From Ignavibacteria bacterium (GTDB taxonomy: Bacteria > Bacteroidota > Ignavibacteria > Ch128b), in contig JABLYA010000001.1 of assembly GCA_013177855.1 (NCBI GenBank), positions 62,001 to 126,000 on the forward strand: DNA of 64,000 nucleotides, given 5' to 3'. The notes below the pieces were generated by a model that did no database searches, had not been told where the DNA came from, and saw nothing but the letters and a program-made list of their open reading frames with translations. Numbering within the stretch: position 1 is the stretch's first letter; every line of letters begins with the position of its first letter. Shown one piece after another: positions 58,318 through 63,163 of the stretch. A program made the translations under genes and the position numbers.

Positions 58318-60719
58318 GAGTATCACTTAATTGGTTAAAAAATTACATCGATATTTCAAATTACTCGCCGATTGATTTAAAAAACATTCTTACAAACTCA
58401 GGCCTTGAAGTAGAGGCAATTGAGGAAATTGGTAAATCTTTGGAAGGTTTTGTTGTTGGTGAAGTCATTTCGAAAGAAAAACATCCCAATGCTGATAAAC
58501 TTTCCGTTTGTAAGGTAAATGACGGAAAAGAAATTTATCAAGTAATTTGTGGTGCACCAAATGTTGAAGCTGGACAAAAAATTGTTTTTGCTCCTCTCGG
58601 TGTAATTATTCCAGGCACTGGTGAGAAGTTGAAGAAAGCAAAAATTCGAGGTGTCGAATCATTTGGAATGATTTGCAGCGAAATGGAACTCGGGCTCGGC
58701 GATGATCACACTGGTATTGTGGTTCTTGATAATAATGCCCCGATTGGTATGCCAATAAACGAATATCTAGGATTAAATGATTATGTCTTAGAAATTGGTA
58801 TTACACCTAATAGACCTGATGCATTAAGTCATGTTGGTATTGCACGTGAGCTTTCTGCATTAACTAAAAAGAAATTTGTCTTTCCAAAAATTGATTTTGA
58901 CGAAGTTGAGGATAGAATTGAAAAGTATTTGAAAGTCGAAATTGAAAATGAAATCGATTGTCCTCGATATTGTGCAAGGATGGTTAGAAATGTTAAAGTA
59001 AAAGAATCACCACAATGGTTAAAAAATTATCTAACCAATGTCGGTATAAGACCAATTAACAACATAGTTGATGTGTCCAATTTCGTTATGCTTGAACTTG
59101 GTCAACCGCTTCACACATTTGATGCTCGATTAATTGAAGGTGGTAAGATAATTGTTAAGAATGCAGATGAAAATGAAAAGTTTGTTACGCTTGATGGTAA
59201 AGAGCGTATTCTCGATTCTTCAATGCTGATGATTTGCGATGCTGTCAAAAAAATTGCAATCGCGGGTGTAATGGGTGGTGCAAATTCTGAAATTTCTGAA
59301 AATACTAAAGATGTAATAATTGAAAGTGCATATTTTAATCCTAAAAGCATTCGAAGAACGAGCAAAAAACTTGGATTGTCAACTGAATCATCATATAGAT
59401 TTGAAAGAGGAGTAGATTATAAAAATACTTTAGTTGCTGCTAATCGAGCAGCACAATTGATTGCAGAACTGGCAGGAGGCGAAATAATTGGCGGATATAT
59501 CGATGAAAATCCAGTTAAGTTTGATGATGTCGAAGTTGAGCTTCGTGTTTCTAGAACTAATAAGATTTTAGGTATAGAATTAACACGCGATGAAATAGTT
59601 GATATCCTTCAGAGATTAAATATTCAGGTGCAAAAATCAAATGGAGATATTTTAATTTGCACAATTCCATCCTTCAGACCAGATTTAACGAGGGAAATTG
59701 ATTTAATTGAAGAAGTTGCACGGATTTACGGTTATGATAAAATCCCGGGCGACTCAAGAATAAATTTTGAGATATCAATTGAGAAGATTCAGCCTAGACT
59801 GGAAGATAAAATTAGAGAAATTTTAACTGGCTATGGGTTGTACGAAGTAATGAATAATACTTTATTAAGCGAAGATGAAGCTCATTTTGATAATTTAAAG
59901 AGTGTAAAAATTCTTAATCCAATCAGTCAGGAACTTTCTCATTTAAGAACAAGCTTAATTCCCGGTTTGTTGAAGACAGTTTCGTTGAATCATCGTTTTA
60001 GTGAATTTGACCTTCAACTTTATGAGATTGGCAGAGTAATGATTGCAAAAAAAGAAAATGTAGTTGGTGTTGATGATTATGTAGAGCTTGAAAAACTTGG
60101 AATTTGTTTAACTGGTAAATTAATCGATAAGAATTGGAAAGAAAACGCGATAGTTAGTGATATATTTTACTTGAAAGGAATAGTCGAAGCATTGCTGGAA
60201 AAACTTTCGCTTGACAATATTAATTTCACTTCTTATTATGCTTCCGAAAATGCGTTCTATTCTATTGAAATTAAAGTGTTTATTGGAAAAACTTATATTG
60301 GTTCTTTATATAAAATGACAGAAGATTATTTGAAAAAATTTGATATCGAAAAACCCGTTTACATCGCCGAGTTTGATCTTGGATTATTAAAGACTTTACC
60401 GAAATCTTCTATTGTATTCAAAAAGCTTTCAAATTACCCGAAGGTTGAAAGAGATATAAGTTTCTTTGTAGATAATGATATTGCTTACGAGAAAATTGAA
60501 AAAGTTATCTGGAGTGCTGCAGATAGACTTTTGGTGAATGTTTATTTGTTTGATTTATATTTTGACCCTAAAAAATCAGATAAGAAAAGTCTTGCCATAA
60601 GATTAGAATTTCAATCTTATGAAAAGACTTTGACAGCAGAAGAAGTTGAAGCAAGAGTTAACAAAATAACCTCATCTCTTGAAAAAGAATTAAACATTCA
60701 ACTCAGGAAATTGAATTAA
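58314..60719 (+). CDS. pheT: Phenylalanyl-tRNA synthetase beta chain
   Basis: 801 residues in the full-length layout: EMAP/tRNA-binding domain (~40-150), B3/B4 editing domain (~210-385), B5 (~400-475), catalytic-like core, and the FDX-ACB anticodon domain (~705-801, ending [12 protein letters not shown]). Pairs with PheS as (alpha-beta)2. Its stop shares a base with the next ATG. Confidence 0.96.
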
Positions 60720-61030
60720 TGAGCAACGAAAATCGGACAAAATTTTTTGAGGCACTTTCAAAACTTGAAGAAAATCTGCAAAAATTTATTGTCCGATTTA
60801 ATGAGGTAAAAAAAGAGAATTCAGAATTAAAACTTGAATTGTTAAATTTGAAAGGACAGCTGGAAGAATTAAATAACGCTTTGGTTGAAAAAGATAAAGA
60901 AATTGAAAATTTGAAAATTCAGCTGGAAAAAGCCAGAAATACGGTAATTATTTCTGAAAAAGAAAGACAAAACCTGAAAAACCGTATTTCTGAAATTCTG
61001 GAGAGGATAGAAGTATACTTAAATAATTAA
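60719..61030 (+). CDS. Small coiled-coil protein, ZapB-like
   Basis: 103 residues, almost wholly heptad-repeat coiled coil (~20-95; NSELKLELLNLKGQLEELNN), rich in Glu, Lys, Leu and Asn. The size, coiled coil and position directly before zapA suggest a ZapB-like division protein, but such sequences are too simple for a firm family call. It starts one base into the pheT stop. Confidence 0.65.
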   Translation: MSNENRTKFFEALSKLEENLQKFIVRFNEVKKENSELKLELLNLKGQLEELNNALVEKDKEIENLKIQLEKARNTVIISEKERQNLKNRISEILERIEVYLNN

Positions 61031-61053: not shown

Positions 61054-61338
61054 ATGTCTTCAAACAAGAAATTGAAAATTAAAATATTTGACCGTGAATA
61101 TTCATTAGTGGTGGATAACGAAGAGCGTGCACGGAATGTAAGTGAATATGTAAACTCGCTAATGAATGATCTGAATGTGGATATGAATGGTCAACCTCCA
61201 CATACAATCGCAATAGTTGCAGCTCTGAATATCGCAAATGATTATTTTATTGAGAAAGAAAACTCGGCTAAAGATTTAAAGGAAGCAACTGATCGATTGA
61301 ATAAGTTAAACCTCCTTCTTGAAGACATTTCCAGCTAA
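61054..61338 (+). CDS. zapA: Cell division protein ZapA
   Basis: 94 residues. The FtsZ-bundling factor ZapA family is recognised from KIKIFDREYSLVVDNEE at the start, YVNSLMNDL, and the C-terminal coiled coil (~55-94; IVAALNIANDYFIEKE). Its place directly before the 6S RNA gene is a common bacterial arrangement. It follows the coiled-coil gene by 23 bases. Confidence 0.88.
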   Translation: MSSNKKLKIKIFDREYSLVVDNEERARNVSEYVNSLMNDLNVDMNGQPPHTIAIVAALNIANDYFIEKENSAKDLKEATDRLNKLNLLLEDISS

Positions 61339-61350
61339 GTTTCACTTCTA

Positions 61351-61570
61351 ACCGCTCCAGACTTCTAAAGAAAAAAATTGAGGACTAACACCCAAAACAA
61401 AGGGAGTTAGACTTCAAAAGCGTATTACAGGCCTCACTCGCTTTTAGCGAGATGCTAAGTGAAATTGTTGTGAAAACAATCACTTAGCACGGTGGAAGTA
61501 AAAAGCTTTTGAGCTAACACCCACTGTGCATAGATAGGTTCTCAATCCTATCTTGAAGTTCTGGAGCGGT
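61351..61570 (+). ncRNA. ssrS: 6S RNA
   Basis: About 220 bases between zapA and rny. The ends pair: ACCGCTCCAGA (61351-61361) with TCTGGAGCGGT (61560-61570), continued after a bulge by 4 more pairs to 61365/61555. Inside is an open central region; GGGAGTTAG (61402-61410) and TCAAAAGC (61414-61421) pair with GCTTTTGA (61505-61512) and CTAACACCC (61514-61522) to form the next arm. Apical hairpins are CTCGCT/AGCGAG (61437-61451) and TGCTAAGTG/CACTTAGCA (61453-61489). The 3' side of the bubble has its own hairpin AGATAGG/CCTATCT (61532-61553). Closing stem, bubble, 3'-bubble hairpin and zapA context match 6S RNA, which traps sigma-70-type RNA polymerase. No clear promoter; TAAGTTTC (61336-61343) overlapping the zapA stop is the nearest -7 match. 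Confidence 0.82.
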
Positions 61571-61600
61571 AATTATTTATAACTAAAGAGAGATGATACT

Positions 61601-63163
61601 ATGGAACTTTATATTTTAATACCTTTGATTGTGATTTTCAGCGTTGCGTTGTTTTTTATTGGATGGACTTTAAACTCGCAAGTCGGAAAACAAAGCATTG
61701 CATCTGCTGAAAAACAAGCTAAAAAAATTATTGAAGAAGCCGAACGAGAAGCAAACAACATAAAAAGAGAAAAGCTTCTTGAAGTTAAAGATGAGTGGTT
61801 CAAGAAAAAACAGGCTTTCGAACAGGAAGTCACCAACAAGAAAAATAATCTCCAAAATTATGAACGTCAGCTTAAAATTCGTGAAGAAGCAATTGATAAA
61901 AAGACCGAACTTTTAGAAAAGAAAGAAAAACAAATTCAGGATCTTGAGGCAAAATTAAATGAAAAGATTTCTGAATATGAGCAGAAAACTCAACAATTAA
62001 ATGCGCTCATTGAAGAACAAACTCATCGCCTTGAAAAGATTGCAGGACTCACTCAAGATGAAGCTAAGAAAATGTTGGTTGAAAATTTAATTAATGAAGC
62101 CAAAACTGAAGCTGCTCAAATGATCAAGCAAATTCGTGATGAAGCAAAAGCAGAAGCGAAGAAAGAAGCTCGAAATATTATTGTTCAAGCAATTCAAAGA
62201 TCTGCTGCTGATCATTCTGTTGAGACAACTGTTAGCGTCATTCAGATTCAAAATGAAGAGATGAAGGGTAGAATAATAGGCAAGGAAGGAAGAAACATCA
62301 GAGCATTTGAAGCCGCAACTGGTGTAGATGTGATAGTTGATGACACACCTGAAGCAGTCATCTTATCAGCATTTGATCCATTTAGAAGAGAAGTTGCGAA
62401 AGTAGCTCTTGAAAGATTAATTGCCGATGGAAGAATTCATCCAGCAAGAATTGAAGAAGTTGTTGAAAAAGTGAAAATAGATCTCGAAGATCAGATTATC
62501 GAAGATGGTGAAAATACATTAATCGAACTTGGGATTCATGGGATGCATCCTGAACTCGTTCGTTTAATTGGTAAAATGAAATATCGTCAAAGCTATGGAC
62601 AGAATCTTTTGGTGCATAGTAAAGAAACAGCAATACTGGCTGGAATTATGGCAGCAGAACTTGGTTTAGATCCAGTATTAGCAAAGCGTGGTGCAATACT
62701 TCATGACATTGGAAAAGTTTTGGATAGAAACACCGAAGGTCCTCATGCGCTTATTGGTGCCGAAATTGCAAAAAAATATAATGAACATCCAATTGTTGTA
62801 AACGCTATTGCATCTCACCATGAGGATGTTGAAATGGAACATCCAATTGCAGCTATTGTCCAGGCTGCAGATGCAATAAGTGGAGCAAGACCAGGTGCCA
62901 GAAGAGAACCGCTTGAAACTTATATAAAGAGACTAGAAAAATTAGAAGCACTTGCAAAGTCTTTCGAAGGTGTTGCTAAAACTTACGCAATTCAAGCTGG
63001 ACGAGAGGTTAGAGTTGTTGTTGAACATGAAAAAATTGATGATTTAAATGCTGAAAAATTAGCGCAAGAAATTGCTGCAAGAATTCAGGAAGAAATGGAA
63101 TTTCCAGGACAAATCAAAGTTGTAGTTATTCGAGAAGTTCGCAAAATTGCATTTGCGAAATAA
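61601..63163 (+). CDS. rny: Ribonuclease Y
   Basis: Membrane-anchored endoribonuclease that starts mRNA decay. 520 residues: N-terminal helix (~3-22), long coiled coil (~30-175), KH domain (~210-270; GRIIGKEGRNIRAFE), and HD domain with H368-D369 in LHDIGK. A GAGAG ribosome-binding site lies ahead. It directly follows the 6S gene. Confidence 0.96.
   Translation: MELYILIPLIVIFSVALFFIGWTLNSQVGKQSIASAEKQAKKIIEEAEREANNIKREKLLEVKDEWFKKKQAFEQEVTNKKNNLQNYERQLKIREEAIDKKTELLEKKEKQIQDLEAKLNEKISEYEQKTQQLNALIEEQTHRLEKIAGLTQDEAKKMLVENLINEAKTEAAQMIKQIRDEAKAEAKKEARNIIVQAIQRSAADHSVETTVSVIQIQNEEMKGRIIGKEGRNIRAFEAATGVDVIVDDTPEAVILSAFDPFRREVAKVALERLIADGRIHPARIEEVVEKVKIDLEDQIIEDGENTLIELGIHGMHPELVRLIGKMKYRQSYGQNLLVHSKETAILAGIMAAELGLDPVLAKRGAILHDIGKVLDRNTEGPHALIGAEIAKKYNEHPIVVNAIASHHEDVEMEHPIAAIVQAADAISGARPGARREPLETYIKRLEKLEALAKSFEGVAKTYAIQAGREVRVVVEHEKIDDLNAEKLAQEIAARIQEEMEFPGQIKVVVIREVRKIAFAK

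Follow-up and report, generated by a model that had tools for sequence, protein, structure and literature searches.

The element between zapA and rny in the window (the whole 64-kb stretch of DNA that we analyzed) is, judging from its sequence, a genuine 6S RNA of Ignavibacteria, which are a poorly studied class. 6S RNAs are small RNAs that turn off RNA polymerase. Most probably, this is a canonical 6S RNA with a conserved 3'-bubble release hairpin, and a duplicated segment, CTAACACCC, adds a lineage-specific 5' hairpin. Homology, synteny, an excess of hairpins over chance, and predicted folding lead us to this reading. The original prediction had instead proposed that the duplication itself is the conformational switch, but the conserved mechanism of release is probably a different one.

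From these data, we infer the following series of events. The RNA would mimic an open promoter and hold RNA polymerase, and the 5' strand of P2 would template a short pRNA, which is predicted to read about 5'-GUCCUCAA..., with its start placed by position beside P2. Unwinding of P2 would release the polymerase, and the freed 3' strand of P2 would, like its counterpart in Escherichia coli, fold into the 3'-bubble hairpin (AGATAGG/CCTATCT). The sequence CYAACA, which follows P2 and is conserved across the class, is in the window's family also complementary to the base of the apical arm. The resulting second 5' hairpin, which is predicted to be strong in the window's genus, would compete with the arm and with P2 but would not be the conserved switch.

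The 6S RNA and its locus

The covariance model for 6S RNA (RF00013) matched positions 61378-61545 with a score of 32.7 bits (E = 6e-4), short of the gathering score (46.4). Two syntenic homologs exceed that cutoff: L041, from the same family (48.7 bits), and L120, from another family (47.1 bits). Together with the conserved synteny, these matches bear out the original prediction of a 6S RNA, which had also named 6S-Flavo (RF01685), the 6S-like RNA of Bacteroidetes (PMC2864571), as a family to search for. Although both are 6S-like, the model for 6S-Flavo had no match in the window (E up to 10) or in the 20 relatives scanned (E up to 0.5); these match RF00013 instead, and we rejected the 6S-Flavo identity. 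The folding energy of the region (61340-61580) is far below that of shuffled sequences (z = -10.1). The predicted structure (-89.3 kcal/mol) is a rod with a closing stem, a large central bubble, and an apical arm (Table 1); the arm and P2 are backed by exchanging strands among 17 families (see below).

Table 1. Features of the 6S RNA locus, with positions in the window
Feature	Positions	Strand	Basis
6S RNA	61350..61572	+	Ends approximate, set by closing stem; RF00013 match, MFE z, conserved zapA-6S-rny position
Closing stem P1, 5' strand	61351..61365	+	MFE structure
Closing stem P1, 3' strand	61555..61570	+	MFE structure
P2 5' strand TTGAGGAC, putative pRNA template	61378..61385	+	Pairs with 61538-61545, P = 0.60 in free RNA; swap test across families
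5' copy CTAACACCC, 5' strand of central bubble	61385..61393	+	Exact-match search
Shared partner GGGAGTTAG, base of apical arm, 5' strand	61402..61410	+	Sequence and pairing check
3' copy CTAACACCC, base of apical arm, 3' strand	61514..61522	+	Exact-match search; swap test supports arm helix across the class
P2 3' strand GTTCTCAA	61538..61545	+	Predicted pairing and swap test
3'-bubble hairpin AGATAGG/CCTATCT, putative release hairpin	61532..61553	+	z = -4.08, p = 0.0017 in window; class z; pRNA-block folding
Competing extended 5' hairpin, 14 bp, three A·A mismatches	61378..61417	+	-15.8 kcal/mol, z = -5.5, 0 of 3000 shuffles
zapA, upstream neighbor	61054..61338	+	Pfam ZapA, E = 9.6e-15
rny (RNase Y), downstream neighbor	61601..63163	+	Pfam RNase_Y_N, E = 2e-57

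We compared the interval upstream of rny in the window with its counterpart in 100 further genomes from the class; those that carry names are Ignavibacteria, Melioribacteraceae, and other Bacteroidota MAGs. The motif ATTACAGGCCTC is present at the zapA-6S-rny position in 85 of these 101 genomes (counting the window), and nearly all of the 85 also have GTGGAAGTAA, the P2 strand AGAAC followed by CYAACA, and ACCCAC...GTTCT. The motif search was negative in the other 16 genomes, yet at least two of these (L086 and L113) have a 6S RNA according to Rfam, so part of this gap is due to the motif itself. None of the 13 genomes sampled from family f11 had a match to Rny at E = 1e-40.

The E. coli 6S gene (ssrS) also lies directly after zapA, but it is followed by fau/ygfA rather than rny. 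Directly 5' of zapA, the window contains a 103-amino-acid coiled-coil open reading frame (60719-61030) with a weak, ZapB-like match that is below the cutoff. The order of a zapB-like gene, zapA, and 6S resembles the zapB-zapA-ssrS array known from beta- and gamma-proteobacteria (PMC7641849). At the 3' end of the 6S RNA of many relatives from several families (such as L062, L064, and L079), the closing stem has the sequence GCGG and is followed by a run of T's, much like an intrinsic terminator; in contrast, no such run follows the closing stem in the window's family.

The duplicated segment and the 5' hairpin

CTAACACCC occurs exactly twice in the window (0.08 occurrences are expected per 64 kb), and both copies and the single GGGAGTTAG are where the original prediction had located them. 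Either copy can indeed pair with GGGAGTTAG, but with just eight of nine pairs, as there is an A·A mismatch that had gone unmentioned. The 3' copy closes the apical arm, as had been proposed. If a 2-nucleotide gap is allowed, then the repeat is longer: TTGAG-GA-CTAACACCCA at 61378-61394 and TTGAG--CTAACACCCA at 61509-61523 (ungapped, TTGAGCTAACACCCA) share 15 identical letters. C61385 belongs to both the P2 5' strand and the 5' copy.

By itself, the repeat is just mildly unusual: exact repeats in the RNA extend to at most 10 nucleotides, a length that is also reached in 2.1% of dinucleotide-shuffled versions of these 223 nucleotides. Chance accounts far less readily for the local 5' hairpin: its core has an energy of -8.2 kcal/mol (z = -4.35, p = 0.001 from shuffles), and the extended form, in which the P2 5' strand is sequestered as well, is more extreme (Table 1).

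The window's family is represented by six genomes from three genera. The 5' copy, partner, and 3' copy are CTAACACCC/GGGAGTTAG/CTAACACCC in the window and in L039. L038 has CTAACACCT as the 5' copy and is otherwise the same; L040 has CTAACACCA/GGTAGTTAG/CTAACATCC; and L041 and L042 have CTAACACTT/GGGAGTTAG/CTGACACCC. The copies thus differ in four of the six genomes, and we rejected the idea that exact duplication is conserved. The original prediction held that the alternative state appeared to be encoded by an exact duplication, and that loss of a copy in relatives would argue against this; such loss is what we found. The five-pair core of the 5' pairing is retained in all six genomes, with the remainder partly maintained by G·U pairs. 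In L040, the partner changed from GGG to GGT. This change costs the arm a pair, but ACC in the 5' copy complements it if one bulge is allowed; from its sequence, the 5' hairpin of L040 may re-pair around this bulge. The z score of the extended hairpin declines from -5.5 in the window to -4.8 in L039, -3.9 in L038, -2.3 in L040, and about -1 in L041 and L042. The hairpin is beyond all 3000 shuffles in two species, has p = 0.0007 in a third, and is the strongest among 51 genera. It is weak in the sister genus g2 (p of about 0.16) and strong in the window's genus alone.

Across the class, we compared folding energies to those of shuffled sequences for 80 sequences from 51 genera. For the 5' strand of the bubble with its partner region, the mean z score was 0.00 ± 0.18, and without the window's family (48 genera) it was +0.20 ± 0.15, so there was no excess over shuffled sequence. 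We also exchanged strands between 17 families and compared the pairing energies of own and swapped strands. Own strands were better for the apical arm (-2.37 ± 0.58 kcal/mol) and for P2 (-2.46 ± 0.39 kcal/mol). For the 5' strand and its partner, own strands were no better than swapped ones (-0.15 ± 0.34), except in the window's family (-8.2 versus -3.2). With both tests at chance level, we rejected the 5' hairpin as a class-wide feature; neither both copies nor both pairings are conserved in relatives, as the duplication is exact in two of six genomes and the 5' pairing is at chance in the other 48 genera. Hairpins in another register of the 5' bubble are present in other single genera (CCGAAT/ATTCGG in L136, CTAATAG/CTATTAG in L043, and CCTATA/TATAGG in L082), as if 5'-bubble hairpins arise repeatedly in the class.

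The duplication is real, but as far as these sequences indicate, it is limited to close relatives and local to a genus. We consider the repeated CTAACACCC to be a lineage-specific double complementarity that forms a 5' hairpin at the level of the genus, with a putative, unproven function. The double complementarity might also be neutral, if CYAACA is kept for another reason and the base of the arm drifted to match it in one lineage. CYAACA is retained where the partner is not complementary (in family f2, CCAACAC is accompanied by GGGAATCTG), and the modest rarity of the repeat and the presence of the exact duplication in just two of the six genomes also fit this explanation, which we find plausible, if somewhat short of an even chance. 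However, the extended hairpin of the window's genus is one that shuffling would be very unlikely to produce, so a selected role is conceivable.

Another possibility is a role in cotranscriptional folding: the 5' hairpin might form transiently, be displaced as the identical 3' copy emerges about 120 nucleotides later, and so aid the ordered folding of the rod. The minimum-energy structure of the 5' prefix is the extended hairpin in the window, L038, and L039, and the core hairpin in L040; the prefix of E. coli 6S likewise forms its 5' stem-loop. However, the prefix from g2 prefers another fold, and the hairpin was not found class-wide. We view this role as rather doubtful.

The 3'-bubble hairpin and predicted refolding

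Unlike the 5' hairpin, the 3'-bubble hairpin is conserved. It encloses and overlaps the 3' strand of P2 and excludes P2; a hairpin that combines the 3' bubble with the P2 3' strand is what defines the E. coli type of release hairpin. The mean z score of the 3'-bubble region was -1.21 ± 0.18 across the 51 genera and -1.17 ± 0.19 without the window's family, and own strands outperformed swapped strands by 2.15 ± 0.50 kcal/mol (17 families). These 3' elements were placed automatically in the relatives, and a second placement corrected most of the misplacements (such as in L062 and L077). The part of the refolding that is kept across the class, and in E. coli as well, is this hairpin, which the original prediction had overlooked.

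All of our folding calculations were thermodynamic, with the polymerase left out. In the free window RNA, the rod is nearly balanced by a fold that combines the extended 5' hairpin with the 3'-bubble hairpin (-88.5 kcal/mol, or at most 0.8 kcal/mol from the minimum), at about 60:39. To represent bound pRNA, we kept 8-20 nucleotides of the P2 5' strand (a 14-nucleotide site) from forming other pairs. In the window, the 5' hairpin then fell from about 0.35-0.39 to 0.01, the 3'-bubble hairpin rose from 0.39 to 0.97, and the apical arm reached 0.87. The class average for the 3'-bubble hairpin rose from 0.36 to 0.78. As a control, the 3' hairpin of E. coli 6S (with the sequence checked against annotated ssrS) rose from 0.14 to about 1.0, which is the known behavior. 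Since any alternative gains free bases once P2 is blocked, the higher level of the 3' hairpin says little more than the shuffle and swap tests already do. The 5' hairpin falls because its extended form itself uses the pRNA template.

These results bear on the switch as originally conceived, in which pRNA synthesis leads the 5' copy to capture GGGAGTTAG, the bubble collapses, and the polymerase is released. It was correct that a local hairpin made with the 5' copy can compete: in the free RNA of the window, its predicted probability is 0.39 per pair, and it is beyond chance in the window's genus. Both pairings are real, the alternative fold is close in energy, the five-pair core is present throughout the family, and L040 answers the change in its partner. 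However, occupying the template shifts the predicted folding away from the 5' hairpin, not toward it; the 5' pairing is conserved no further than the family and is weak in g2; and the near-equal balance is peculiar to the window, as local 5' pairing is predicted at just 1-2% in free L038 and L039. The same calculation also gives 0.00 for the 5' stem-loop of E. coli 6S near nucleotide 60, which was modeled at about 30% from SAXS data (PMC10406553), so a zero in such folding is not proof of absence, and the calculation may fail here too. Overall, we consider this switch to be quite improbable.

A related possibility is that the 6S RNA of the window's genus is bistable even without pRNA: the 14-bp 5' hairpin would hide the pRNA template and dissolve the apical arm, and the 3'-bubble hairpin would form. 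We think that this is very improbable. If it were true, there would be a reservoir of inactive 6S RNA whose energy is near that of the rod that binds polymerase, and a near-copy of the arm's 3' strand would have supplied the means to build it.

Directly downstream of the putative pRNA template are seven A's (61371-61377), so a pRNA of more than 8 nucleotides would include a U7 tract, and its hybrid would be weak. The pRNA of E. coli would not run into a U tract in this way. The seven A's are retained in the window's genus and in L040 and are absent from L041 and L042.

Comparison with other 6S RNAs

In E. coli, the 3'-bubble hairpin is the known release hairpin (PMC8876501). By our calculation, free E. 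coli 6S RNA pairs P2, and when the template is occupied, the 3' strand of P2 moves into the 3'-bubble hairpin, as in the window; this hairpin has 9 bp in E. coli and 7 bp with an 8-nucleotide loop in the window. Both 3' and 5' stem-loops are discussed for the E. coli 6S:pRNA complex in PMC10406553, which cites papers from 2012. Nucleotides 53-66 of E. coli 6S can form CCACA-AGAA-UGUGG, and UGUGG otherwise pairs with the 3' strand of the apical arm, which is the same competition as in the window. From its position, fold V of that study would be this hairpin. The E. coli hairpin has 5 bp (-4.4 kcal/mol), compared to 8 pairs for the window's (14 if extended; -8.2 to -15.8 kcal/mol), and its competing strands, unlike the window's, are not exact duplicates. 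Because both stem-loops were already described in E. coli, the principle of the duplication switch is not new.

In Bacillus subtilis 6S-1, the 5' strand of the bubble re-pairs during pRNA synthesis, forming the central bubble collapse helix that is summarized in PMC8876501; this resembles the fold proposed for the window, but the B. subtilis strand pairs with the 3' strand of P2, whereas the window's 5' copy pairs with the apical arm. The mechanism that was proposed for the window is thus a variant of described behavior, and its conserved part here is the 3' hairpin.

These results place a 6S RNA at a fixed position between zapA and rny across most of Ignavibacteria, where it is mostly missed by the Rfam cutoff. 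They also indicate that the mutual exclusion of P2 and the 3'-bubble hairpin, which is known from gamma-proteobacteria, holds in Ignavibacteria as well. Because this exclusion has been kept despite large sequence turnover, our results support the view that the 3' hairpin is the more widely shared element of the release switch and that the 5' stem-loop is a lineage-variable addition.
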